DNA of 64,000 nucleotides from Flavobacterium sp. N1736. GTDB lineage: Bacteria; Bacteroidota; Bacteroidia; Flavobacteriales; Flavobacteriaceae. The notes beneath the pieces are model-generated. The model saw nothing but the letters and a program-made list of their open reading frames with translations, did no database searches and had not been told where the DNA came from. This document shows positions 21,005 to 47,350 of this stretch, in pieces. The number at the start of each line of letters is the position of its first letter. Position 1 is the first letter of the stretch. The translations under genes were made by a program, and so were the position numbers. Where the stretch lies: positions 2,294,001-2,358,000 of the forward strand of contig NZ_CP109994.1 in assembly GCF_025947065.1 (NCBI RefSeq), in the 5' to 3' direction.

Positions 21005-23220
21005 TTAAACACTTGCATAAGCTTCTGATTCTTTTGATGGCGGTGCAATTTCCCCCAGCGGATCTAATAAACAGGCACAAACTTTAAATTCGGGTATTTT
21101 TGAAACAGGATCTAAAATTCCGGTTGTAAGTTGATTTGCAGATTTGGCTCCCGGCCAATGATATGGTATAAAAACGGTGTCTTTGCGTATAGTTTCAACG
21201 ATATTCGCCGGAAAAATTCCTTCACCTCTCCTTGTTGCTACCCGAACCAGTTCTCGTTGTTTAATTCCATATTTTAAAGCCAGTTCCGGATGAATTTCTA
21301 ACATAGGTTCAGGGAACTGGTCTACCAATTTACCTATTCTGCGTGTTTGAGTACCGCTTAAATATTGTGAAACTACACGACCTGTAGTAAGGGTTATTGG
21401 GTATTCGTCATTAGTAATTTCTCCGGGTTCTCTATATGGAGCAGGATTAAAATGTGCTTTTTTATCGGGAGTTGCAAATACTTTATCTTCCCATAATCTT
21501 GGTGTTCCCGGATGATCATCTGTTGGACAAGGCCAAAAAACGCCCATATTATCTTCTATTTTTTTATAGGATATTCCAAAATAATCTGCGGTTCCGCCTT
21601 TTGAGGCTACGCGCAATTCATTAAAAATAGCTTCGCTGTTTTCGTATGTAAATTTATCTTCTTCTCCTAGTCGTTTGGCTATTTCCAGCAATATTGACGT
21701 ATCTGTTCTGGCTTCTCCGGAGGCGTAACTGCCTGACGAATTCTAATAACACGACCTTCTGCAGATGTTGTTGTTCCTTCTTCTTCTTCCTGCAAAGAAC
21801 CTGCTAAAACAATATCCGCATGACGAGCCGTTTCATTTAAAAAGAAATCGATACAAACGTAGAATTCTAATTTTTCAAGTGCAGCCCTGACATAATTATT
21901 ATTTGGAAGCGAAACCAGCGGATTAAAACAAATGGAAATCAATCCTTTGATCTCTCCGCTATGAATGGCTTCTATAATTTCATAAGCTGTTAATCCTTTT
22001 CCGGGCATGTCTTTCTCGTCAATTCCCCAAACTTGAGAAATATATTTACGATGTTCCGGATTTTCAATATCACGATTTCCCGGTAATTGATCGCATTTAT
22101 GACCGTGTTCTCTTCCGCCTTGTCCGTTTCCTTGTCCGGTTATGGTTCCATATCCGCAATAAGGTCTTCCAATTCTTCCGGTTGCGAGAACGAGATTTAT
22201 ACAGCCAACTACATTATCAACACCTTTGGAGTGATGTTCGATTCCGCGTGCGTGAAGTAAAAAGCTAGTCTTTGCTTTTCCCCATAATTCTGCGGCTTCT
22301 TGTATTTTATATTTATCAATTCCTGTAATTTCTTCTGCCCATTCTAAGGTATAATCTTTTACAGCATCGATTGTTTCCTGAAATCCTGATGTATAATTGT
22401 CTATAAAATCATGATCAAGCATATCGTGATCTACCAGATATTTTAGCATTGCGCCATATAAAGCGGAGTCTGTTCCGGGTTTTACATCTAAATGCACATC
22501 AGCAGTTCTGGCTAACGGTATCATTCTTGGATCGATTACAATTAATTTTGCGCCGCGATCTCTGGCTTTCCAAATCCAGTGCGTTAATGTTGGAAACGTT
22601 TCGCTGATATTGGCTCCGGCAACAATAATTACTTCTGCATATTCTAAATCAGAATAATTGTTTGAGGCGCGATCTAAACCAAAAGCTTTTTTATTTCCGG
22701 CTCCGGCACTTACCATACAAAGTCTTCCGTTATAATCCAGATTTCTGGTTTTTAAGGCTACACGGGCAAATTTTCCAACGAGATAACTTTTTTCATTGGT
22801 TAGTGATACGCCTGATAACATCGAGAATGCATGTTTACCATATTTCTCCTGTATTCTTTTTATTTCAGATACGGTTTTATCCATTGCTTCATCCCAGGAT
22901 GTTTTCTCAAAACCTTTGCCTTCTATTCTTTTTATGGGATGCAAAAGACGATCAGGATGATTATTTTGCAAATAACGCTGTACTCCTTTTGGGCACAAAC
23001 GACCTTCGTTAAACGGAAATTCCATCCACGGTTCAAAACCAACTACTTTATTTTCTTTTACCAATAACTGAATTCCACATTGCATTCCGCAAAAACAACA
23101 ATGTGTTTTTACTACTTCATCCGGTTCATCTCTACCTGTGTAACCATCTTTTGGCGCATAATTTAAATGAGGACCAAAATCTTCAATAATTTTCTCGATT
23201 GATACGGGTAATTTTGCCAT
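21005..23220 (-). pseudogene. Second molybdopterin oxidoreductase (nitrate reductase type), frameshifted
   Basis: Two overlapping frames together encode one protein of about 739 residues. The first (23220-21679) holds the [4Fe-4S] motif [10 protein letters not shown] ... LCPKG, the cysteine molybdenum ligand in [10 protein letters not shown] and cofactor-binding segments. It then goes out of frame at TPP|EKPEQ. The second frame (to 21005) continues as [19 protein letters not shown], exactly what the family has there, and carries the C-terminal cofactor domain. One missing G near 21716-21721 explains it. It is either a real inactivating deletion or a sequence error; everything else looks intact. 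It lacks a Tat signal. The gene sits among subunits for electron delivery from quinol. Confidence 0.88.
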
Positions 23221-27636: not shown

Positions 27637-28179
27637 ATATGAAATACATTTCAAATTTTTAATATTTTATAATTAATATAAAAAATGAGTGTTTAGGTAT
27701 TGTTATTCTGGCAGGTATAATGAAGGAAATAAAAAGAAGCAGATATCTTTATTTTTGCATAAATTTAGTAATAAAATTCTACTAAAATGGATTTATTTTT
27801 TATTTTTTAAAACATAAACAACTCATACACTTATAATTAGCATTTACAAACCGAAAATTAAATTTAAATTGATTTTTTGAGACTGCTTTTTCTCAAAAAA
27901 ATAGCATTAAATTCTAAATCAGTGCTTAACGTGACGTTTTATGGTTCTGTTTTGAAATTTACAAGTAATTCAGAGCGAATATATTAAGTATAAAATACTA
28001 CATTTTGTGGTTTGTATAATAGTAATTTTTAACATTTATAAGTTTTTCAAAAATGCAAATAAACAACTGAAAATCAATAAATTAAACTCTAAAAACACGA
28101 GTAAATCTTGCTTATAAATTAGCCGTTTTAAAAAAAAATGTATTTTTTTTTGGATTTTATTATATTAAAATTAACTTTG

Positions 28180-28213
28180 TCTATAGGATTAGTAGAGTTT
28201 AAAATTATATTTG
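28180..28213 (+). promoter_or_regulatory. Putative sulfur-locus operator and promoter
   Basis: TCTATAGGATTAGTAGA (28180-28196) is a dyad with half-sites TCTA/TAGA, followed 9 bp later by TATATTTG (28206-28213), a -7 element. Nearly the same dyad is at 37053-37069. Transcription from here would leave a leader of about 450 nt before the SusC gene. The dyad resembles sites of Rrf2-type sulfur regulators; this is inference. Confidence 0.5.
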
Positions 28214-28639: not shown

Positions 28640-28677
28640 AAGGCTCCTTGTTAATTACTAAAAACCAATACAAAGAA

Positions 28678-31600
28678 ATGAAAAAATATTTAAACATATA
28701 CTCATTGCTTTTTCTCCTTCTGTTATCAGCAGGAATTAATGCTCAAAATACAACCCCGCTTATACAATCTAAACTCGACGGAACTGTTGTCGACGACATT
28801 ACAAATCAGCCTATTATAGGCGCTTCTGTAAACATAAAAGGTACAACGCACGGTGTTGTAACCGATGCAGAAGGAAAATTTTATTTTCAAACCGGTCAAA
28901 AACTTCCTTATACTTTAATAGTAAGTTATATTGGATATAAGAAAACTGAAATAATAGTTGACAAAAATCCGGTTACGATTAGCTTAAAAGAAGAAAGACA
29001 GGAACTGGACGAATTAGTTGTTGTTGGATACGGAACGCAAAAGAGAAAAGATATTACTGGTTCTGTAGCTTCTGTGCCAAAAGCCAATTTATCTCAGGTA
29101 ACCTCATCGGCAGATAATTTATTAAGAGGCGCCGTTGCGGGAGTTGTAGTTACACAAAGTTCAGGACGTCCTGGTGCATCTTCAAGTGTACGTATTCGTG
29201 GCGGAAACTCTATTACAGCGGGTAACGAACCTTTGTATGTTTTAGACGGAATCTTAATATATAATGACAACAATAATGGTTCGGCAGGAGTTTCAAATGC
29301 CGGGGCAAGTATTAATGTATTGTCTACTATAAATCCTGCTGATATTGAATCTATTGAGGTTTTAAAAGATGCATCGGCAACTGCTATTTATGGTTCACGC
29401 GGCTCAAATGGTGTTGTTATTATTACGACTAAAAAAGGTACAAAAGGTCAGGATAGTATTTCGTATCAGGGTTATTTTGGATTTCAGGATGTGTCAAAAA
29501 AACTTCATTTAATGAATGCCAGCCAATGGGCAAGTTTGCGAAATGATGTTCAGGCAAGTATTGGTCAGGCACCATCTTTTAGTGATGCGCAAATCGAAGC
29601 TTTTAAAACTTCAGGCGGATACGACTGGCAATCGGCTGCTTTTAGATCTGCCGCTCCCGTTCAAAATCATCAGCTTTCTTTTTCAGGCGGTGACGAAAGA
29701 TCTCGTTACGCTATTTCTGCAGGATATTTTGATCAGGAAGGAACTGTTATTGGATCTGATTTTAAAAGAATTTCTCTTCGTATTAACTATGAAAAAAACT
29801 ATTCTCAGAATTTTAAATTTGGCGTAAACGCTAATTATAGTAACTCAATTTCAAATGGTGTAGGAACAAACAGCGCTGGCGGAAGAACTCCGAATCCGTT
29901 GGTAAGCGCCGTACTTACTGCTCCGGTAGTGCCTATTAAAAATGCAGACGGAAGTTATAATGTAACCAATAATATTTATGCAACTTCTGTAAATGGTTTT
30001 GTTCCAAATCCTATTAACGATTTAGAAAATACAATTAACGAAACTAAAATCAACAGAATCCTAACCAGCTTATTTGGTGAATATAAAATCACTAAAAAGC
30101 TAACTGCAAAAGTGGCTGTAAGCGGCGACGTAATTAACACGAAACAAAATTATTATGCGCCTGCAAATACAACAAACGGTGCAGGAACAAAAGGATTGGC
30201 GTCTATTGGAGACCGATTGGTAAGTTCTGTATTGAATGAAAATACGCTGAATTATAATACCACTTTCGGTGAAAACCATAAATTTTCAGCTTTAGGAGGT
30301 TATACGCTTCAATATACACAAGGTGAAACGGTAACGGCAGGTGCAAACACTTTTGTAAACGATGCAAATACGTACAATTCTATTCAGGATGGTGTTCCTG
30401 TAAAACCATATAGTGATGCATTCGAAAGTGTTTTAAAATCATGGCTTGCCAGAGTAAATTACTCTTACAGAGGAAAATACAACTTTACACTTTCCGGACG
30501 TGCAGATGGTTCTTCAAGATTTGGTTCTAAATCACTTTGGGGATATTTCCCGTCAGCAGGTTTTTCATGGAATATTACTGATGAAGAATTCGCCAATAAC
30601 ATTAAAGGTGTAACCGAAGCCAAACTTAGACTTACAGCAGGAACAACAGGAAATCAGGAAATTGGAAATTATCTTTCACTGGCTTCAATGGGGTCTGTAA
30701 ATTATTCTTTTGGAGGTACTTTATATACAGGATTAGCCCCTACCCGTTTGGCAAATCCGGATTTGAAATGGGAAAAAACAACGCAATATAATGTTGGTTT
30801 GGATTTATCATTATTAGACAGAAAAGTAAATTTTGTTTTTGATGTTTATTACAAAAAAACAAACGATTTATTAATCAGCGTTCCGGTGCCGTTAACTTCA
30901 GGATATGCGAGTGTACTTCAAAACATTGGAGGTGTTGAAAATAAAGGTCTTGAAATTGGTTTAACGACTGAAAATTTAAGAACAGAAAACTTTTCATGGA
31001 ACTCAAACATTGTGTTTTCTGCAAACAGAAATAAAGTAGTTTCTATAGGAAATGGCGTTGATCAGTTTTTTCCTGTAGTGCCAAACGGCTCCTTATTACA
31101 GCAACAGCCTGTAACGGTTAAAGTTGGTTTGCCTTTGGGAACTTTCTGGGGATACAAAACAAATGGTATTTTCCAGACTCAGGAAGAAGTAAATACACAA
31201 CCAAAAATAAACAGTCTTGCCAATACAAAAGTGGGAGACAGAAAGTATGTTGATACCAACGGAGACGGTGTAATTACAGCGCTTGATAAAGGAAATTTAG
31301 GAACATCGCAGCCAAAATTTGTGGCAAGTTTCAGCAACACGATTTCGTATCATGACTTCGATTTAAATTTCTCTTTTCAGGGATCTTATGGCGCAAAAAT
31401 CTTCAACGCTTTAAATCAGCAGTTAGAAATTTCTACACTTGGTACCAATGCTAATGTTACTTTGGTAGACCGTTGGACTCCGGCAAACCCAACCAACGAC
31501 GTTCCAAGAGCATCAAGTTCTCCTTTAGGAATTGTTTCTGAGCGCTATGTTGAAGATGCTTCTTTTGTTAGATTAAAATTAATCACGCTTGGTTATACAT

Positions 31601-31803
31601 TACCAAAAAGCACTTCTAAAAAACTGGGAGCAACAAGCGTGAAATTCTATGTCTCTGCAGAAAATCTGGTTACATGGACAAAATACACCGGATTTGATCC
31701 TGAGGTAAGTTCATACGAACAAAATAACTTATATCCGGGAATTGATTTTGGTTCTTATCCAAACTCAAGAACATTCATTTCCGGTCTGAACGTAACTTTC
31801 TAA
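28678..31803 (+). CDS. SusC/RagA-family TonB-dependent outer-membrane transporter
   Basis: 1,041 residues from the ATG at 28678; an in-frame TTG ten codons upstream is less likely because the signal peptide begins at MKKYLNIYS. After it comes a carboxypeptidase-like domain (DGTVVDDITNQPIIGASVNI), the SusC motif (ELVVVGYGTQKRKDITGSV), a plug domain (VRIRGGNSI, ATAIYGSRGSNGVV) and a beta barrel ending in FISGLNVTF. It imports a ligand captured by SusD across the outer membrane using TonB energy. With four sulfatases downstream, the ligand is probably a sulfated organic compound; this is inferred from context. Confidence 0.95.
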   Translation: MKKYLNIYSLLFLLLLSAGINAQNTTPLIQSKLDGTVVDDITNQPIIGASVNIKGTTHGVVTDAEGKFYFQTGQKLPYTLIVSYIGYKKTEIIVDKNPVTISLKEERQELDELVVVGYGTQKRKDITGSVASVPKANLSQVTSSADNLLRGAVAGVVVTQSSGRPGASSSVRIRGGNSITAGNEPLYVLDGILIYNDNNNGSAGVSNAGASINVLSTINPADIESIEVLKDASATAIYGSRGSNGVVIITTKKGTKGQDSISYQGYFGFQDVSKKLHLMNASQWASLRNDVQASIGQAPSFSDAQIEAFKTSGGYDWQSAAFRSAAPVQNHQLSFSGGDERSRYAISAGYFDQEGTVIGSDFKRISLRINYEKNYSQNFKFGVNANYSNSISNGVGTNSAGGRTPNPLVSAVLTAPVVPIKNADGSYNVTNNIYATSVNGFVPNPINDLENTINETKINRILTSLFGEYKITKKLTAKVAVSGDVINTKQNYYAPANTTNGAGTKGLASIGDRLVSSVLNENTLNYNTTFGENHKFSALGGYTLQYTQGETVTAGANTFVNDANTYNSIQDGVPVKPYSDAFESVLKSWLARVNYSYRGKYNFTLSGRADGSSRFGSKSLWGYFPSAGFSWNITDEEFANNIKGVTEAKLRLTAGTTGNQEIGNYLSLASMGSVNYSFGGTLYTGLAPTRLANPDLKWEKTTQYNVGLDLSLLDRKVNFVFDVYYKKTNDLLISVPVPLTSGYASVLQNIGGVENKGLEIGLTTENLRTENFSWNSNIVFSANRNKVVSIGNGVDQFFPVVPNGSLLQQQPVTVKVGLPLGTFWGYKTNGIFQTQEEVNTQPKINSLANTKVGDRKYVDTNGDGVITALDKGNLGTSQPKFVASFSNTISYHDFDLNFSFQGSYGAKIFNALNQQLEISTLGTNANVTLVDRWTPANPTNDVPRASSSPLGIVSERYVEDASFVRLKLITLGYTLPKSTSKKLGATSVKFYVSAENLVTWTKYTGFDPEVSSYEQNNLYPGIDFGSYPNSRTFISGLNVTF

Positions 31804-34928: not shown

Positions 34929-36863
34929 ATGAAAAAAATTAATAATAACAGTACAATCAAAAGTCCTAAAAAAGGGCTTTTGATTACTGCACTACTTGTA
35001 GCACAATTAGGAGCAGTACAAGGATTTGCACAATCAAATCCTGATCAGGAATTTAAAGGTACAATTGGAAAAACCTTAGCCGATTCTAAAGAATATTGGC
35101 CTGAGCCGGTAAAAGCGCCACAAGGTGCGCCAAATATCGTTTGGATATTATTAGACGATGTTGGTTTTGGAGCTTCAAGTAGTTTTGGAGGATTAATACA
35201 AACACCCACTTTTGATGAATTGGCTAATAACGGTTTACGTTATACAAATTTCCATACAACAGCAATTTGTGCGCCTACCCGCGCCGCTTTATTAACCGGA
35301 AGAAATTCAGGACGAGTGCATGTTAGCGGTTTCTCTCACACGGTTTTATCAGCAGGTTTTCCGGGTTGGGATGGCAGAATTCCATCTGATAAAGGAACAA
35401 TTGCAGAGATTTTAAGAGACAAAGGATACAACACTTTTGCAGTTGGTAAATACGGATTAACGCCTGACGAAGAAGCTTCAGACGCCGGACCGTTTGACAG
35501 ATGGCCGACAGGAAAAGGTTTTGAACACTTTTTTGGTTTCTTAGGATCTCAAACGGATCAGTACAAACCTGATTTAGTGGAAGATAATACACACATTGTT
35601 CCTGACGGAAGACACTTAACAGAGCAAATTACGGATAAAGCAATTACGTACATTAAAAACCAACATAAAGCGGCTCCAAACAAACCATTCTTTTTGTACT
35701 ATGCGCCGGGAGCAGTCCATGCACCTCATCAGGTTGAAGAAAAATGGAGCGATCAATACAAAGGAAAATTTGATGATGGCTGGGATGCTTACCGCGAAAA
35801 AGTATTGGCAAACCAAAAGAAATTAGGTGTAATTCCTGCCAATGCCGTTTTACCGGAACGTAATCCGCTTATTACAGACTGGAAAAAATTAACGCCGGAT
35901 CAAAAGAAAGTTTATGCACGTTTCATGGAAGTTTACGCCGGATATCTTACGTATACAGATTACGAAATTGGAAGAGTTGTAAATTATCTAAAAGAAACCA
36001 ATCAACTTGAAAACACTTTGATTTTTGTTGCGATTGGCGATAACGGAGCAAGTAAAGAAGGTACAACGCAAGGTACAATCAACCAAAATTTATTTGCCGG
36101 CGGCGTATCTGATGAAAAAAATCTTCAGGATAATTTAAACAACATTGGAGAAATTGGAACTGCAAAAGGTTTAAATACCAATTATCCATTAGGTTGGGCT
36201 CAGGCAACTAATTCACCTTTTAAAAACTGGAAACAAGATGCACATTCTGAAGGCGGAACGCGCAATCCGTTGATTGTTTATTATCCAAAAGGAATTAAAG
36301 ATAAAGGCGGAATCAGAAATCAATACAGCCACGTAACTGATTTATTGCCAACAACATTGGATATTGCAGGACTTAAAGCTCCGGAAACTATCCGTGAAAT
36401 CAAACAGGATAAAATTCAGGGTTCATCTTTCTATGCTTCCTTAAATGATGCAAAAGCAGAATCATTACACAAAGTACAATACTATTATATTTTTGGAAAC
36501 AGAGCTATTTACAAAGATGGATGGAAAGCCGCTGCGGCACATTTACCGGATTCTTTTGCTTTGAAAAATAATTTGGGTAAAGGCGAAAAACCTGCACCAA
36601 GCAATTTTGATGCTGATGTTTGGGAATTGTACAACTTAAACGAAGATTTTAACGAGCGTAACAATCTTGCTAAAAAATATCCTGAAAAATTAGCCGAACT
36701 TCAAAAATTATTTGATGAACAAGCGAAGGAAAATAACGTTTATCCGCTAATCGACTGGCAGGATGTATTTAGCAGAAGAATACATAATAACGGAACTGAT
36801 AAAAGTAAAAATCTTCAGGAATTAATTCGTCAGGCAAATAAACCAGCCGGAAGTACCAATTAA
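34929..36863 (+). CDS. Sulfatase (arylsulfatase type) 2
   Basis: 644 residues, about 100 longer than its neighbours. A signal peptide ends near GFAQ. Motifs are IVWILLDDVGFGAS, C-A-P-T-R (Cys114) and IGDNGAS. The SGKWH-type loop is replaced by VGKYGL, a sign of a different subfamily and substrate. It would cleave sulfate esters in the periplasm. It starts 45 bp after sulfatase 1. Confidence 0.93.
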   Translation: MKKINNNSTIKSPKKGLLITALLVAQLGAVQGFAQSNPDQEFKGTIGKTLADSKEYWPEPVKAPQGAPNIVWILLDDVGFGASSSFGGLIQTPTFDELANNGLRYTNFHTTAICAPTRAALLTGRNSGRVHVSGFSHTVLSAGFPGWDGRIPSDKGTIAEILRDKGYNTFAVGKYGLTPDEEASDAGPFDRWPTGKGFEHFFGFLGSQTDQYKPDLVEDNTHIVPDGRHLTEQITDKAITYIKNQHKAAPNKPFFLYYAPGAVHAPHQVEEKWSDQYKGKFDDGWDAYREKVLANQKKLGVIPANAVLPERNPLITDWKKLTPDQKKVYARFMEVYAGYLTYTDYEIGRVVNYLKETNQLENTLIFVAIGDNGASKEGTTQGTINQNLFAGGVSDEKNLQDNLNNIGEIGTAKGLNTNYPLGWAQATNSPFKNWKQDAHSEGGTRNPLIVYYPKGIKDKGGIRNQYSHVTDLLPTTLDIAGLKAPETIREIKQDKIQGSSFYASLNDAKAESLHKVQYYYIFGNRAIYKDGWKAAAAHLPDSFALKNNLGKGEKPAPSNFDADVWELYNLNEDFNERNNLAKKYPEKLAELQKLFDEQAKENNVYPLIDWQDVFSRRIHNNGTDKSKNLQELIRQANKPAGSTN

Positions 36864-37325: not shown

Positions 37326-38393
37326 ATGGCAATAGTTCAAAAAGAAAAACTAACAAGAGATTTAAGCATCAGTCTTTTAATATACAGTTTGCCTGTAGTG
37401 GCAATTTTCCTTTATTTTAAACTAACAAATGGTGTTGTAGCAGAATCACATATCACATTACCAGCATTTTTACAATTTGCACAACCTGCATTTCAACACA
37501 TTAGAACCTGGGGATTAATCGTTTTCATGCTTGTTTTAGGAGCAATCGAATTTGCCGCAGGTTTATACGATGACGAATGGACGGGCGAAGAACGTAAAAT
37601 TGATATCGTTTGTTTCTTAGCTCCAAAATTGCTTTTACCGCCTGTAATTGCATTTTTCAGTTTAACTGCATTACCTTATTTAATTCCAAATTTAGCCAAT
37701 ACACTTTCATGGGTTCCGTTTTGGGGAGGTTTTTTCCTAATCGCCATTGCCGATGATTTAACGCAATATTGGTACCACCGTTTACACCACCAAGTTCCGT
37801 TTTTATGGCGTTTTCACAGAACACACCACTCCGCTCCATACATGGGAATGGCGATGGCTTCGAGACAAAACTTTATCTATACTGTGTTATTTTCTCAAAT
37901 ATATTTAACAGCAACTTTAACGTATTTAGGTTTAGGTTTACCGGCACTTTTTGTTTTGGTTATTAAAAGTTTCATCACTTTAGGAGCGCACTCAAGCATT
38001 GCATGGGACAAACCTTTTTACAAATACAAAGTTTTACATCCAATTGCATGGGTTTTAGAACGTTTAATCTCAACTCCGGCAACGCATCACGCGCATCATG
38101 CTGATACAAGCGGTGACGGTGTTGGACATTTTAAAGGCAACTTCGGAAATATGTTTTTCATCTGGGATGTGATTTTCGGAACGGGTTTAATTACACGTAA
38201 ATTCCCAAAATCATACGGAATGAAATCATACAAACAAGAAGAATGGTACGCACAATTTTTGTGGCCAATATTCAAATCTAAAAAAGAAGGAAGTGCTTTG
38301 GCAGAAGGCGTTTTATCAGTTCCGTTAAAACCAAAAGCAGAACCTGTTGTTGCAGCAAGTCCGGTTTATTACGACGAACCGGCTCAGGTATAA
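37326..38393 (+). CDS. Sterol desaturase / fatty acid hydroxylase family protein
   Basis: 355 residues with about four to six membrane helices and the three His clusters of di-iron membrane hydroxylases: HRLHH, HRTHH and HHAHH. The family uses oxygen to hydroxylate or desaturate lipids. It lies inside a sulfatase locus after a sulfur-type operator, so the substrate may be a sulfated lipid or sterol, or a compound released by the sulfatases. That link is inference. Confidence 0.88.
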   Translation: MAIVQKEKLTRDLSISLLIYSLPVVAIFLYFKLTNGVVAESHITLPAFLQFAQPAFQHIRTWGLIVFMLVLGAIEFAAGLYDDEWTGEERKIDIVCFLAPKLLLPPVIAFFSLTALPYLIPNLANTLSWVPFWGGFFLIAIADDLTQYWYHRLHHQVPFLWRFHRTHHSAPYMGMAMASRQNFIYTVLFSQIYLTATLTYLGLGLPALFVLVIKSFITLGAHSSIAWDKPFYKYKVLHPIAWVLERLISTPATHHAHHADTSGDGVGHFKGNFGNMFFIWDVIFGTGLITRKFPKSYGMKSYKQEEWYAQFLWPIFKSKKEGSALAEGVLSVPLKPKAEPVVAASPVYYDEPAQV

Positions 38394-39571: not shown

Positions 39572-41191
39572 ATGGCATCATTCACAAGAATTAAAAAAAT
39601 ACTTATACCAATTCTGCTTGTGCTTTTTATTGCCGTACTATTTTTATTCTGGCCCATTAATACCAATGGAAAATTAATAGAACCGGACAAAAAATTAGTC
39701 GACGGAAAAGCAGCATTTCTGGCACAAAAAGACACCTCAAAATCTTCAGAAAAAAAACCTAATATCATCATTCTACTTGCTGATGATTTAGGTAAATACG
39801 ATATTTCATTATACGGAGGAAAAGCAACGCCAACACCTCAAATTGATTCTTTGGCAGCTTCCGGCGTAACCTTTACAGATGGGTATGTTTCAGCTTCTAT
39901 TTGTTCGCCATCTCGTGCCGGTTTGTTGACCGGGCGTTATCAGGAACGTTTTGGTCATGAATATCAACCCGGAGACCGATATCCGAAAAATAACTTAGAA
40001 TATTATGCTTTCAAATATTTGATAAATACCAATAACTGGCGATTAAATCAAAAAATTGAATATCCAAATGATGCTTCGATTGCAACTCAGGGTTTACCGC
40101 AATCTGAAATTACTTTTGCAGATTTAGCAAAAAAACAAGGTTATGCAACAGCCATTATAGGAAAATGGCATTTGGGACACAACAAAGGATTTTTTCCGCT
40201 GGACAGAGGTTTCGATTACCACTACGGCTTTTATCAGGCATTTTCGCTTTATACGCCCGAAGATGATAATCCGGATATTATCAATCATCATCATAAAGAT
40301 TTTACCGATAAAACAATTTGGGGGAACGGACGTGTTGGAATTGGACAAATTCGCCGCGATACAACGATTATAAAAAATAAAGCCTATTTAACTGAAACAT
40401 TTGCTGATGAAGCTGAGGCTTTTATCGACAAAAATAAAACAAAACCATTTTTGCTTTATGTTCCGTTTAATGCACCACACACGCCTTTTCAGGTTCGTAA
40501 AAAATATTACGATCGTTTTCCGAATGTAAAAGACGAAAACAAACGCGTGTATTTTGCCATGATCAGCGCGCTTGATGACGCCGTTGGAAGAATTGTTGCC
40601 AAAGTAAAAAAAGAAGGTCTTGAAGAAAATACCTTAATCATTTTTGCCAGCGATAACGGCGGCGCAGATTATACTTTTGCCACAACAAATGCGCCATTAA
40701 AAGGCGGTAAATTTTCTCATTTTGAAGGCGGAATCAATGTTCCGTTTGCATTGTCATGGAAAGGAAAAATCAAACCGCATACCGTTTATAAAACTCCTGT
40801 AAGTTCATTGGATATTTTTAGTACAGTTGCAGCCGTTACACATTCCGGTTTACCAAAAGACAGGGTTTATGATGGTGTCGATTTGATCTCAACCGTAAAC
40901 AATAATACAGAAGCGCATAAAAATTTATACTGGCGTTCCGGCGATGCAAAAGCAATTCGAAGCGGTGATTGGAAATTAATTATCAGCGGAAAAACACACG
41001 AAGAATGGCTTTATAATTTGGCAAACGACAAGTCTGAAACGACAGATCTTTCTCAAAAAAATCCGGCAAAAGTAAAAGAACTTCATGCGGCATTGCAAAA
41101 CTGGGAAAAAGGTCTTGTAAAACCTTTATGGCCTAATTTAACTTATTACGAATTTGACTTTGGCAAACAAAAATACTTTGTCGATTTGTAA
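39572..41191 (+). CDS. Sulfatase (arylsulfatase type) 3
   Basis: 539 residues. The N-terminus is a long hydrophobic signal anchor (residues about 8-28). Motifs are IIILLADDLGKYDIS, C-S-P-S-R (Cys111), IGKWHLG and ASDNGGADY. It should desulfate small organic sulfates in the periplasm or at the membrane. It stands alone between two intergenic repeats (39410 and 41225), so it may be transcribed separately. Confidence 0.94.
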   Translation: MASFTRIKKILIPILLVLFIAVLFLFWPINTNGKLIEPDKKLVDGKAAFLAQKDTSKSSEKKPNIIILLADDLGKYDISLYGGKATPTPQIDSLAASGVTFTDGYVSASICSPSRAGLLTGRYQERFGHEYQPGDRYPKNNLEYYAFKYLINTNNWRLNQKIEYPNDASIATQGLPQSEITFADLAKKQGYATAIIGKWHLGHNKGFFPLDRGFDYHYGFYQAFSLYTPEDDNPDIINHHHKDFTDKTIWGNGRVGIGQIRRDTTIIKNKAYLTETFADEAEAFIDKNKTKPFLLYVPFNAPHTPFQVRKKYYDRFPNVKDENKRVYFAMISALDDAVGRIVAKVKKEGLEENTLIIFASDNGGADYTFATTNAPLKGGKFSHFEGGINVPFALSWKGKIKPHTVYKTPVSSLDIFSTVAAVTHSGLPKDRVYDGVDLISTVNNNTEAHKNLYWRSGDAKAIRSGDWKLIISGKTHEEWLYNLANDKSETTDLSQKNPAKVKELHAALQNWEKGLVKPLWPNLTYYEFDFGKQKYFVDL

Positions 41192-41369: not shown

Positions 41370-42632
41370 ATGTCAACCCAAACAAAACAATATAATGTTC
41401 ACGAAGACTGGACGGTTGTAATTCTCGGATTTCTAATTATCGGGATTTCGCTATTTGTTTTTCTTCCAGAAGTTCCTGCTTTCAGCTGGTCAAATAGTAC
41501 CGATTTAACAACGAAAGTCTTTGCTTTTGAAAACCTGCAAATCCTTTTAATTCAATTTTTATATTTGATTACGATTGGAACTTTAGGTGCTTTTTTAATT
41601 GGAAAATCTGTAAAATATTTTCTTTTTACTTTTCCCATAGTTTATTTCTTAACACTGATTGCACTTGTTCTGGCAGGAAATTCAGCTATAAAATCTATCA
41701 ATTTAGAAGCCGTTATTTTCAGTTTAATAATTGGTTTGGTAATCGGTAATTTCTTCAAACTTCCTGAATGGTTTCGATCAGCGCTTTCTACAGAAGTTTT
41801 TGTCAAAATTGGATTGGTTTTATTGGGAACCAGCGTAATTTTTTCAGACATTTTAAAAGCGGGTTCATTAGGATTAATTCAGGCATTGGTTGTGGTTTTA
41901 TCGGTTTGGTATTTTGCTTTTTGGCTTTGCCGAAAATTAAAAGTTGATGACGAATTAACGATGATGATTTCGAGTGCGGTTTCTATCTGCGGCGTTTCTG
42001 CTGCAATTGCAACTTCGGGCGCTATAAAAGGAGATTCAAAAAAACTGTCTTATGTAATTTCGATGGTTTTGGTAACCGCAATTCCCATGATGATTTTTAT
42101 GCCCATAATTGCTAAACATTTCCATTTTCCCGAAGAAGTAACGGGCGCATGGCTTGGCGGAAGTATCGATACATCCGGCGCAGTTGTCGCCTCCGGAACT
42201 TTGGTTGGCGAAACGGCATTGAAAATTAGCACGATTGTAAAATTCTCTCAAAATGTTTTATTAGGAGTGGCCGCTTTTGCAATCTCTGTTTATTGGACAT
42301 ATACACATAATAAATCAGAAGAAGCTGTGGCATCAAAACCAACCCTGAGCGTTATTTGGGAACGTTTTCCGAAATTTGTTATTGGCTTTATTGTCGCTTC
42401 ACTGGTATTTTCTTTTTTAATTACTCCGGAAGTTCGGGATGAAGTAAAAGACAGTTTAAAAAACCTGCAGGGCATTTGGTTTGCATTGGCTTTTACAAGC
42501 ATTGGTTTAGAAACTAATTTTAAAGATTTACTCAGCAACAACAGCAAAAAACCTTTATATGCCTTTTTAATCGCGCAATTATTTAATGTGATTATTACGT
42601 TGATAATCGCTTTTTTACTGTTTGGCAAATAA
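41370..42632 (+). CDS. yeiH: YeiH-family putative sulfate exporter
   Basis: 420 residues, about ten transmembrane helices, UPF0324 family. The core motifs LGTSVIFSDILKAG, AVSICGVSAAIATSGAI and GGSIDTSGAVVASGT are present. Family members are annotated as putative sulfate exporters. In this locus it could remove excess sulfate or sulfite produced from organosulfates. The role is from context and family naming, not from a proven mechanism. Confidence 0.88.
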   Translation: MSTQTKQYNVHEDWTVVILGFLIIGISLFVFLPEVPAFSWSNSTDLTTKVFAFENLQILLIQFLYLITIGTLGAFLIGKSVKYFLFTFPIVYFLTLIALVLAGNSAIKSINLEAVIFSLIIGLVIGNFFKLPEWFRSALSTEVFVKIGLVLLGTSVIFSDILKAGSLGLIQALVVVLSVWYFAFWLCRKLKVDDELTMMISSAVSICGVSAAIATSGAIKGDSKKLSYVISMVLVTAIPMMIFMPIIAKHFHFPEEVTGAWLGGSIDTSGAVVASGTLVGETALKISTIVKFSQNVLLGVAAFAISVYWTYTHNKSEEAVASKPTLSVIWERFPKFVIGFIVASLVFSFLITPEVRDEVKDSLKNLQGIWFALAFTSIGLETNFKDLLSNNSKKPLYAFLIAQLFNVIITLIIAFLLFGK

Positions 42633-44505: not shown

Positions 44506-45426
44506 ATGGCAGAATCAAAACAACAACAGACTGCATTAGGCGATGTTGCAGCAAGACAGTTAGCAATCGCAACACGTACAGTTCCTCAAATAGGAACGAC
44601 ATCGCCACGTTGGTTAACGCATCTTTTACATTGGACTCCGGTCGAATCGGGTGTGTTTCGTTTGAATAAAGTAAAAGACGGAAGTCATATAGAAGTAGAT
44701 TGTTCTGCAAGAGATGAAAGGGTTTTACCAAATACTTTTGTTGATTATATCGAGAATCCAAGAGAATATAATCTGGCAGCAGTTCAAACAATTGTCGATG
44801 TTCATACTCGTGTTTCTGACTTATACAGCAAACCATACAATCAAATTTCTGAGCAGCTTCGTCTGGCAATTGAAACCATTAAGGAACGTCAGGAAAGCGA
44901 ATTAATCAATAATAAAGATTACGGTTTATTGAGTAATGTGGCTAAATCTCAAATTATAAAAACGCGTACAGGCGCTCCAACTCCGGATGATCTGGACGAA
45001 TTACTAACTAAAGTATGGAAAGAACCGGGCTTTTTTCTTTTGCATCCGTTGGCTATTGCAGCTTTCGGACGTGAATGTACGCGTCGTGGAGTTCCTCCGC
45101 CAACTATTTCTTTATTTGGATCTCAGTTCTTGACATGGAGAGGAATTCCGCTTATTCCATCTGATAAATTACCCATCGTAAACGGGAAATCAAAAATCAT
45201 TTTATTGCGTACAGGTGAAAGCCGTCAGGGCGTTATCGGACTTATTCAGCCGGGACTTCAGGGTGAACAATCGCCTGGATTATCGGTTCGTTTTATGGGA
45301 ATAAATGAAAAAGCAATTGCTTCCTATCTGGTTTCTCTTTATTGTTCGTTAGCGATATTGGTTGATGATGCCATTGCCGTATTAGAAGATGTAGAAATAG
45401 GAAAGTACCATGAGTATAAATACTAA
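44506..45426 (+). CDS. srpI: Family 2A encapsulin shell protein (SrpI-like)
   Basis: 306 residues, the usual length for the SrpI/MMPI group. Family features are the opening QTALGDVAARQLAIATRT, SPRWLTHLLHWTPVESGVFRL, FLLHPLAIAAFGRECTRRG, IPLIPSDKLPI, and GLIQPGLQGEQSPGLSVRFM. It has the HK97 coat-protein fold and self-assembles into an icosahedral compartment. The next gene overlaps its last 17 bp and encodes the known cargo class, a cysteine desulfurase. Family 2A shells have been linked to sulfur starvation and to storing elemental sulfur. There is no signal peptide; it acts in the cytoplasm. Confidence 0.96.
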   Translation: MAESKQQQTALGDVAARQLAIATRTVPQIGTTSPRWLTHLLHWTPVESGVFRLNKVKDGSHIEVDCSARDERVLPNTFVDYIENPREYNLAAVQTIVDVHTRVSDLYSKPYNQISEQLRLAIETIKERQESELINNKDYGLLSNVAKSQIIKTRTGAPTPDDLDELLTKVWKEPGFFLLHPLAIAAFGRECTRRGVPPPTISLFGSQFLTWRGIPLIPSDKLPIVNGKSKIILLRTGESRQGVIGLIQPGLQGEQSPGLSVRFMGINEKAIASYLVSLYCSLAILVDDAIAVLEDVEIGKYHEYKY

Positions 45427-47350
45427 CAACAACGGTTTACCTAACATCGACGATTTGCAGTTTTTAGCAAACGAGCTGTTCAAAACGTTACCCAATGAGT
45501 TTCCTAAAGAAATTTCACTGAGTCCGAATAAAGACGAACATCCGCGTGCCGTAAAAGCTGTAGAAACGTTGTTGCAGGCAGGAAATTTAGGCGATTATAA
45601 CCAATCGACTATTTCGTTGCAGCAGTTAGAAAACATACCGGAAGCACCTCCAGCCTTTGGAGGTTTTGGTGTTTCACCGTCTGTTGCCAGTTTTGGAAAT
45701 ACAGGAATTTCATCTTTATATCCAAATACAATAAGCGGATTTGATCCCAATAGTGCCCTTTCTCCGCTAGAGATTCCGCATGGAAATAATGTGAACCTTA
45801 ATAATCCGCAAACCGGATTTTCTGATACTAATTTTAAAAATGGAGGAACAGCAGCGTCAACAGAGAAAAATATTTTTTCTGAATTGAATCTCAATCAGCA
45901 ATATTCACCATTTGAAATTGGCGGTTTTTCGTTTGAAAAAGAATTGGATGAAGCCTTAAAAACAGTTGATACCCAATTTACAAAACGATTAAATATACCT
46001 TCAAATCCGGCTGAAATTCCGAATTCATATTATTTCCTCGATCAGAATCCTTTTGCTTTTGATAAAAGAAATACAAATGTGGTACTGGGAAACTCTTTCG
46101 ATTCAAAGGAATTTCACACTTTAGAAAGTTCTCCTTTTAATGCCAATCTGATTAAAAAAGATTTTCCAATTCTAAATCAAACCGTAAATGGCAAACCGTT
46201 AATTTGGTTTGATAACGCGGCAACGACTCAAAAACCTCAATCGGTAATTGATCGTATTGCTTATTTTTATGAGAATGAAAATTCGAATATTCACCGTGCA
46301 GCGCATGAATTGGCAGCGAGAGCTTCTGATGCTTACGAAGCAGCGCGTGAAAAAGTAAAAGTTTTTTTGAATACGAATTCTGTAAACGAAGTTGTATTTG
46401 TCCGCGGTGCAACAGAAGCAATTAATCTTGTGGCACAAAGCTGGGGCGATCATAATCTGGTTTCCGGCGATGAAATAATCGTTAGTAATCTTGAACATCA
46501 CGCCAATATTGTACCGTGGAAACGTCTTGCTGATAAAAAAGGATTAAAACTTCGTGTAATTCCGGTTGACGACGACGGGCAAATCCTGTTGGAAGAATAT
46601 GCCAAATTGCTAAATTCTAAAACGCGTCTCGTTGCTTTTACTCAGGTTTCAAACGCATTGGGAACGGTAACTCCTGCCAAAAAAATAGTTGAAATGGCGC
46701 ATGCCGCCGGAGCGAAAGTTTTAATTGACGGTGCACAATCTGTTTCGCATATGAAAGTCGATGTTCAGGATTTAAATCCCGATTGGCTGGTTTTTTCCGG
46801 ACATAAGTTATTTGGTCCTACCGGAATTGGCGTTTTATACGGAAAAGAAGATTTGCTAAACGAAATGCAGCCGTATCAATCTGGCGGAAACATGATTCAG
46901 GATGTTACTTTTGAGGAAATAAAATACCACAAAGCACCCAATCGTTTCGAAGCAGGAACAGGAAATATTGCCGACGCTATTGGTCTTGGAGCGGCAATTG
47001 ATTATGTCACCAAAACCGGAATCGAAGCAATTGGGCAATATGAGCATTTTTTATTAGATTATGCCACGAAGCTTATAAAGGAAATTCCGGGTGTACGATT
47101 GATAGGAACTGCAGCTAATAAAGCAAGTGTGCTTTCTTTTAATCTGCAGGGATATTCTAACGATCAGGTTGGTCAGGCGCTAAACAAAGAAGGAATTGCA
47201 GTGCGAACCGGACATCATTGTGCGCAGCCTATTTTACGCAGAATGGGTGTTGAAACCACAGTTCGTCCGTCGCTGGCATTTTACAATACTACGCAAGATG
47301 TAGATACTTTTATTAAAACGTTGTGGGAACTTAAAAAAGTTAGGTTCTAA
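45410..47350 (+). CDS. Encapsulin cargo cysteine desulfurase (SufS-like) with N-terminal targeting domain
   Basis: 646 residues. Residues 247-646 are a SufS-type PLP enzyme: Lys466 in FSGHKLFGPTGIG binds PLP and Cys604 in TGHHCAQPILRRMG is the sulfur acceptor. It removes sulfur from cysteine to give alanine and persulfide. Residues 1-246 are Asn/Ser/Pro/Gly-rich and look disordered, with patches LQFLANELFKTLPNEFP (17-31), FGGFGVSPSVASFG (83-96) and YYFLDQNPFAF (207-217). Such N-terminal domains direct the enzyme into Family 2A encapsulins. The start overlaps the shell gene by 17 bp, so translation is probably coupled. The standard SufS has no such extension. Confidence 0.95.
   Translation: MSINTNNNGLPNIDDLQFLANELFKTLPNEFPKEISLSPNKDEHPRAVKAVETLLQAGNLGDYNQSTISLQQLENIPEAPPAFGGFGVSPSVASFGNTGISSLYPNTISGFDPNSALSPLEIPHGNNVNLNNPQTGFSDTNFKNGGTAASTEKNIFSELNLNQQYSPFEIGGFSFEKELDEALKTVDTQFTKRLNIPSNPAEIPNSYYFLDQNPFAFDKRNTNVVLGNSFDSKEFHTLESSPFNANLIKKDFPILNQTVNGKPLIWFDNAATTQKPQSVIDRIAYFYENENSNIHRAAHELAARASDAYEAAREKVKVFLNTNSVNEVVFVRGATEAINLVAQSWGDHNLVSGDEIIVSNLEHHANIVPWKRLADKKGLKLRVIPVDDDGQILLEEYAKLLNSKTRLVAFTQVSNALGTVTPAKKIVEMAHAAGAKVLIDGAQSVSHMKVDVQDLNPDWLVFSGHKLFGPTGIGVLYGKEDLLNEMQPYQSGGNMIQDVTFEEIKYHKAPNRFEAGTGNIADAIGLGAAIDYVTKTGIEAIGQYEHFLLDYATKLIKEIPGVRLIGTAANKASVLSFNLQGYSNDQVGQALNKEGIAVRTGHHCAQPILRRMGVETTVRPSLAFYNTTQDVDTFIKTLWELKKVRF

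Follow-up and report, generated by a model that had tools for sequence, protein, structure and literature searches.

A family 2A encapsulin and its cysteine desulfurase as a probable optional add-on to a sulfur-scavenging island in Flavobacterium

The window analysed here, a 64,000-nucleotide stretch of DNA from Flavobacterium sp. N1736 (GCF_025947065.1, contig NZ_CP109994.1), carries the genes for a family 2A encapsulin shell and its cysteine desulfurase cargo at the end of a same-strand block of SusC/SusD, sulfatase and other genes. The pair is a genuine 2A encapsulin with its desulfurase and probably forms an optional two-gene add-on that ends a sulfur-scavenging island, with sulfur held in the compartment as a buffer. 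At the level of sequence, the locus and its relatives document the identity of the genes, a conserved neighbourhood, repeated swaps between sulfate-ester-type and sulfonate-type modules, and one chromosomal site that is occupied by the shell pair in some strains and lacks it in others. The role of family 2A, sulfur storage or sulfur delivery, is left open in the main text of the founding paper, which is set in a sulfate-starved cyanobacterium (PMC8049743). In Flavobacterium, of which many species are in culture, this compartment is linked to apparent scavenging of organosulfur.

Shell and cargo

The two genes of the compartment are the following.

44506..45426, plus strand: family 2A encapsulin shell (SrpI-like), 306 aa; PF19307, NF041162, match to 6x8m
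45410..47350, plus strand: cargo cysteine desulfurase, 646 aa, with an N-terminal loading domain of about 240 aa; NF041166, SufS-type domain, motifs

The original prediction, made from the letters and a list of open reading frames (ORFs) without database searches, had placed both genes here, exactly to the base, and had assigned the shell to family 2A. The searches return an HK97-type, SrpI-like shell sequence. PF19307 is the sole Pfam family matched by the shell (355.5 bits, cut-off 22.8), the NCBIfam model for family 2A, NF041162, gives 526.1 bits against a cut-off of 380, and the best solved relative is SrpI (PDB 6x8m, E=1.9e-151), aligned over shell residues 7-306. The family 2B model is also passed (421.9 bits, cut-off 400), its best match joining shell residues 60-299 to model positions 210-449, the C-terminal part of the model. 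A 2B identity was set aside despite this score, because a shell of 306 aa leaves no room for the additional cyclic-nucleotide-binding (cNMP) domain whose absence distinguishes 2A from 2B.

In the main text of PMC8049743, Gly194 and Pro196 of SrpI are described as five-fold pore residues, and Phe262 and Tyr273 as lying near the cargo density. All four are kept in the 6x8m alignment, as shell Gly195/Pro197 and Phe263/Tyr274; SrpI Arg192 corresponds to Arg193, and Arg304 is replaced by Lys305. Structure prediction, which had been proposed as a check, was of no help in itself: the AlphaFold monomer, computed from 17 closely similar sequences (the relatives at 86-97% identity), reached a pLDDT of 32.5 and was left unused. 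The identification therefore rests on full-length similarity to solved 2A shells. The single-contig genome (G000, 5.1 Mb) has one shell gene. Shells of the Flavobacterium type share 90-99% identity with its product, the best 120 protein-search matches are all at least 85% identical, and public records already name other Flavobacterium shells as family 2A.

The cargo matches NF041166 over residues 5-641 (888.7 bits, cut-off 800), which bears out the predicted desulfurase, and it is of the SufS type (TIGR01979, 552.8 bits), with the corresponding domain beginning at about residue 243. The two residues singled out in the original prediction, the pyridoxal phosphate (PLP) lysine Lys466 and Cys604, are intact and end an SGHK and an HHC motif, respectively. 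Ahead of the catalytic domain lies a long unannotated N-terminal domain. Family 2A cargo carries motifs such as LARLANEFFS and AASPYYFLDG in this domain (main text of PMC8049743), and both are found in variant form, as LQFLANELFK from residue 16 and NSYYFLDQ in the YYFLD region at about residue 207. Relatives were taken from a scan of named genomes as the best 80 of 438 loci, comprising 59 of Flavobacterium type (including records named only Flavobacteriaceae or [Flexibacter]) and 21 from other Bacteroidota; strict patterns for the two loading motifs fit 71 and 55 of these 80. Shell and cargo lie on the same strand and have 17 bp in common, as predicted. The same mechanical overlap of 17 bp is seen in 60 of the 80 relatives and amounts to 14-125 bp in the others, whose mechanically assigned starts possibly lie too far upstream. 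Judged from their sequences, both proteins are ordinary for family 2A, and the pair itself is of a known kind.

The upstream island

The sulfatase/SusCD neighbourhood reported in the original prediction is present between 28648 and 44371, where nine genes precede the shell on one strand in the order given here.

28648..31803, plus strand: SusC-like TonB-dependent outer-membrane transporter; PF07715, PF00593
31821..33296, plus strand: SusD-like outer-membrane binding protein; PF07980, PF14322
33315..34883, plus strand: sulfatase A, Cys-type, secreted-looking by eye; PF00884, CPSR motif, nearest solved 7all, 1hdh
34929..36863, plus strand: sulfatase B, Cys-type, secreted-looking by eye; PF00884, CAPTR motif, nearest solved 4cxk/1hdh
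37326..38393, plus strand: FA_hydroxylase-family membrane protein; PF04116
38668..39399, plus strand: rhodanese-thioredoxin fusion, secreted-looking (hydrophobic N-terminus by eye); PF00581 and PF00085, CATC motif
39572..41191, plus strand: sulfatase C, Cys-type; PF00884, CSPSR motif, nearest solved kappa-carrageenan S1 sulfatase 6prm
41370..42632, plus strand: YeiH, putative sulfate exporter family; PF03601
42716..44371, plus strand: sulfatase D, Cys-type, secreted-looking by eye, adjoining the shell; PF00884, CAPTR motif, nearest solved 7all, 1hdh

The SusC start is a mechanical TTG, and the true start may lie further in. From SusC to the shell, the intergenic gaps measure 17, 18, 45, 462, 274, 172, 178, 83 and 134 bp. 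All four sulfatases have a cysteine in the maturation motif, and the nearest solved relatives of A, B and D are arylsulfatases (7all, 1hdh/4cxk). Twelve PF00884 matches occur in the genome, four of them in the island. The YeiH-family protein scores 93.6 bits with TIGR00698, under the cut-off of 232.6.

In the relatives, the upstream region was counted for 55 Flavobacterium-type loci, four (L045, L056, L057, L061) being left out for short upstream DNA. A sulfatase stands within 10 kb upstream of the shell in 45 of the 55. A methanesulfonate-monooxygenase-like enzyme is found upstream in nine, without a sulfatase, and no locus holds both. One or other organosulfur-type module is thus present in 54 of 55 loci, which strengthens the earlier guess of an organosulfate-fed compartment; in the remaining locus, L055, SusD is joined by two membrane proteins of unknown kind, YeiH, serine acetyltransferase (SAT) and CysK. 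In the sulfonate-type module (module B), an amidohydrolase, a luciferase-type monooxygenase and an amino-acid permease stand behind SusCD. The monooxygenase (from L004) matches methanesulfonate sulfonatase 7olf over residues 17-386 (449 bits, E=1.3e-133), far more strongly than alkanesulfonate monooxygenase 1nqk (1e-48), and falls under the NCBIfam cut-off for alkanesulfonate monooxygenase (239.5 vs 518.2 bits). A search of 150 sampled genomes of the genus for this MsuD-like enzyme gave only three weak matches, of 28-32% identity.

Genes of cysteine synthesis recur in the same block. SAT is intact upstream in 34 of the 55 loci and CysK in 33, with both in 27; SAT is broken in L013. The SAT scores below the cysE equivalog cut-off (172.2 vs 210.65 bits) and above that of EpsC, and CysK exceeds its own cut-off. 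Immediately ahead of the shell, CysK is the recognised gene in 34 loci (in L050 as a remnant of 99 aa); in 12 it is a sulfatase, in seven SAT and in two the permease. The window belongs to the sulfatase-next-to-shell type. YeiH is found in 41 loci (39 intact), the rhodanese-thioredoxin protein in 38 and the FA_hydroxylase gene in 35 (34 intact). The original prediction had contrasted this neighbourhood with the SAT and cysteine-synthase setting described in cyanobacteria; the contrast is true of the window and fails for most relatives. Because these carry SAT or CysK upstream, the locus is better described as the known cysteine-synthesis setting with an organosulfur front end, and the idea that one setting had replaced the other was dropped. 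In 21 of the 55 loci (L003, L005, L011 and others), though not in the window, the cargo gene is closely followed by a further SusC/SusD pair.

Module swaps and the site with and without the shell pair

The shell occurs in 18 of 150 sampled genomes of the genus. Sulfatases were searched for in 17 of these 18 (G062 was left out), and all 17 have one within 20 kb upstream of the shell, with at least 57 in total by hand count against 0.73 expected for an even spread; the loci are related, so these are not 17 independent facts. Given this relatedness by descent, it is the exchange of modules that lends independent weight to the link. Quick trees with SH-aLRT support only were made from shell plus cargo DNA and from the flanking aminotransferase gene (OAT), with 61 rows each. 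At least four changes of module type are needed on the shell-cargo tree and at least five on the OAT tree, four being forced by starred branches in each. Loci L023 and L083 are colinear from 33 bp past the cargo gene onward and have no blastn match upstream.

A YeiH orthologue (at least 79% identity) is present in 27 of the 150 genomes, namely in 17 of the 18 with a shell and in 10 of the 132 without (Fisher p=1.3e-14, a test that ignores kinship). The orthologue of one shell-bearing genome, G083 (C35:73785-75035), contains an in-frame TAA. Presence of the shell changes at least seven times on the flank tree, six of them forced; possession of YeiH was the criterion for including shell-free rows, and the count is not an unbiased rate. 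In L008 and L084, the flanks are 90-93% identical, and a 4.9-kb segment with sulfatase D, shell and cargo (L008 8069-12942) is absent from L084. For this pair, as for L023 and L083, colinearity alone was compared. With such natural pairs, whose loci differ chiefly in the compartment (L008 has it, L084 lacks it and the adjoining sulfatase) or in the scavenging module (L023 against L083), ordinary laboratory strains would allow a direct test of storage against supply.

Beyond the genus

In the 21 loci from other Bacteroidota, model searches place TauE upstream in three and YeiH upstream in two and downstream in one; SAT is found upstream in three and downstream in seven, and CysK in three. Pooled Pfam scans of hand-picked neighbours outside the genus returned TonB receptors, TauE (4/87), PALP, hexapeptide proteins and a PhyH-SDR pair. 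Several of the loci outside Flavobacterium are without any recognised sulfur gene, and the sulfur theme holds there in part. The link to sulfatases is a Flavobacterium trait.

The pairing of a PhyH-family dioxygenase with a short-chain dehydrogenase recurs near 2A shells outside Flavobacterium (L071, L072, L075, L077, L080, L081, L093). In one Flavobacterium and in two loci from other Bacteroidota (L055:580-3563, L060:3236-6221, L069:1791-4835), the SusD and YeiH genes ahead of the shell flank a pair of mutually related membrane proteins, somewhat DoxX-like by eye; for two members of this pair, L069:3168-4832 and L060:3236-4666, there was no Pfam match. In a sample of the phylum, 55 of 62 shell-matching genomes fall under a single family code (f18), with matches mostly from about residue 60 and frames of about 490 aa, which is as expected of family 2B shells.

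Proposed role and alternatives

In the proposed sequence of events, SusCD would import organic sulfate, the envelope sulfatases would free the sulfate, and the cell's own assimilation pathway would carry it to cysteine. The genome holds, away from the island, its closest CysE-like gene (50% identity) together with a CysK-like gene at 547.7-549.3 kb, and two adjacent PAPS-reductase-family genes at 4.45 Mb. The compartment would then take in cysteine, and the desulfurase would convert it to alanine and sulfur. The sulfur may be kept inside the shell as persulfide, polysulfide or elemental sulfur, so as to buffer an intermittent supply. We infer that the genes are co-expressed, that the shell assembles and is loaded with the desulfurase, and that storage is its purpose. 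Most likely, the compartment is an optional device that handles cysteine sulfur downstream of organosulfur scavenging. A wider proposal is slightly less likely than not. In it, the organosulfur island of Flavobacterium would be modular, its front end exchangeable between a sulfate-ester and a sulfonate version, its middle devoted to cysteine synthesis, and the 2A compartment an optional sulfur buffer. The compartment would bank sulfur from organic sources, and strains would gain or lose the bank while keeping the scavenging genes.

Several observations weigh against the main reading, that of a buffer at the end of a scavenging island. A sulfatase lies upstream in just two of the 21 loci from other Bacteroidota. 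Within the genus, nine of the ten shell-free places that bear YeiH are the same site, with a sulfatase module beside the aminotransferase and Lrp genes and without shell or cargo (the tenth lies elsewhere). As a control on the site, the flanking Lrp gene was looked for in 20 hand-picked genomes that lack the shell and have no close full-length YeiH. It was present in 13, and three of these 13 carry SusCD and sulfatases beside it without a shell, bringing the shell-free version of the site to 12 relatives in all. At the other ten, models recognised neither SusCD nor a sulfatase, one having a weak SAT-like match of 28 bits; wherever SusCD was recognised at the site in this sample, sulfatases were too. 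The island thus occurs without the compartment, and scavenging therefore does not need it. The 17 shell-bearing genomes are probably largely the same as the named loci (the shells of G053 and L011 have the same contig position) rather than a second sample, and none of the 17 has the sulfonate-type module. The nearest solved relative of sulfatase C is a kappa-carrageenan enzyme. A gap of 134 bp precedes the shell gene, which may or may not be co-transcribed with the genes ahead of it. Rfam, run at gathering scores across the window, returned no riboswitch and a single match, the Flavo-1 RNA far from the locus (RF01705, 61066-61207, plus strand, 50.5 bits, cut-off 42). A Flavobacterium-type promoter pattern, tried on eight stretches, had no match before the shell; its one full match, at 28150-28179, is far upstream of SusC, and -7 halves occur additionally at 28206 and 37088.

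Instead of storing sulfur, the pair could be a supply device that passes persulfide sulfur from cysteine to iron-sulfur or thio-cofactor synthesis in sulfur starvation, the neighbourhood reflecting shared starvation control. Delivery is, beside storage, one of the two models offered by the authors in the main text of PMC8049743, the cargo is of the SufS type, and SAT and CysK neighbours would fit any cysteine-supply operon. However, a separate SufS-like enzyme is encoded (a 405-aa SufS-type frame at 4079141, 53% identity, the closest of four further desulfurase-like matches in the genome), and the rhodanese-thioredoxin protein of the island looks secreted by eye, which makes it a poor candidate for a cytoplasmic acceptor. 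A supply role is considered rather unlikely. Storage is favoured over direct supply as a matter of judgement, because of the separate SufS-like enzyme and because intermittent organic sulfate fits a buffer.

The neighbourhood could also be a product of descent, the pair having been inserted once beside the island in a Flavobacterium ancestor and kept without a working link. The near absence of sulfatase linkage outside the genus, the close identity of the Flavobacterium-type shells and the coming and going of the shell pair are all compatible with such a history, which is nevertheless improbable: the upstream modules have been exchanged several times, almost every locus holds one of the two organosulfur-type modules, and the ten control sites with neither sulfatase nor SusCD recognised argue that the site does not attract just any SusCD block. 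Very improbable is a reading of the SusCD and sulfatase genes as a plain polysaccharide utilisation locus that takes a sulfated glycan as carbon source and is unrelated to the encapsulin. The block does have the SusC/SusD pair of such a locus and several sulfatases; C comes closest to carrageenan sulfatases, and the further matches of A, B and D include sulfatases for sulfated glycans. Yet the Pfam families matched by the nine genes between 28648 and 44371 include no glycoside hydrolase or polysaccharide lyase, three of the sulfatases are nearest to arylsulfatases, the alternative module carries a sulfonate-monooxygenase-like enzyme instead, and SAT or CysK stands in the same block in most relatives.

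Comparison with known systems

The closest described counterpart is SrpI with its desulfurase CyD in Synechococcus elongatus PCC 7942 (6x8m; PMC8049743). Family 2A shells are characterised as T=1 particles with 60 subunits and a size of about 25 nm. According to the main text of that paper, SrpI is upregulated by sulfate starvation, cargo is loaded through its N-terminal domain, and encapsulation raises desulfurase activity. The window pair shares with it the full-length shell match, the adjacent genes, the sulfur-metabolism setting and the cargo loading domain with both motifs as variants, but is preceded by SusCD, four sulfatases, a rhodanese-thioredoxin fusion and YeiH. Sulfatase, sulfonate, rhodanese, Flavobacterium and Bacteroidetes do not occur as word beginnings in the main text of PMC8049743. 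The 111 family 2A desulfurase operons from Bacteroidetes in PMC8346489 are of the same family and cargo type, and the accessories most enriched there according to its main text, SAT and rhodaneses, both recur in Flavobacterium, although the rhodanese of the window is a secreted-looking thioredoxin fusion. Sulfatase, sulfonate, organosulfur and Flavobacterium are likewise absent as word beginnings from the main text of PMC8346489, supplementary figures aside. In the literature searched, encapsulin, sulfatase and Bacteroidetes were not found together, and papers on encapsulin and Flavobacterium are, by title, on other matters. Nor was there, supplements aside, any description of an organosulfur island whose modules can be exchanged and whose compartment is optional; this neighbourhood is the apparently new part. 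Elemental sulfur storage is claimed for the family in the title of Benisch et al. 2024.

Among the enzymes of the front ends, arylsulfatase 1hdh belongs to the two best solved groups for sulfatases A, B and D. The similarity is only moderate (218-325 bits), and the window sulfatases differ in standing with SusCD in a multi-sulfatase block. 1hdh is AtsA of Pseudomonas aeruginosa, an enzyme induced by sulfate starvation. For the sulfonate type, the counterparts are methanesulfonate sulfonatase 7olf and alkanesulfonate monooxygenase 7oh2; the module B enzyme matches the former but is confined to nine relatives and is not in the window.

Elsewhere in the window

A molybdopterin oxidoreductase is apparently split at 21005-23220 on the minus strand, into a catalytic part (21679-23220) and a C-terminal binding part (21005-21691) with a 13-bp overlap. 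The same stretch also holds major facilitator superfamily (MFS) transporters and MoeA, and the split is possibly a frameshift in a nitrate-assimilation-like cluster.

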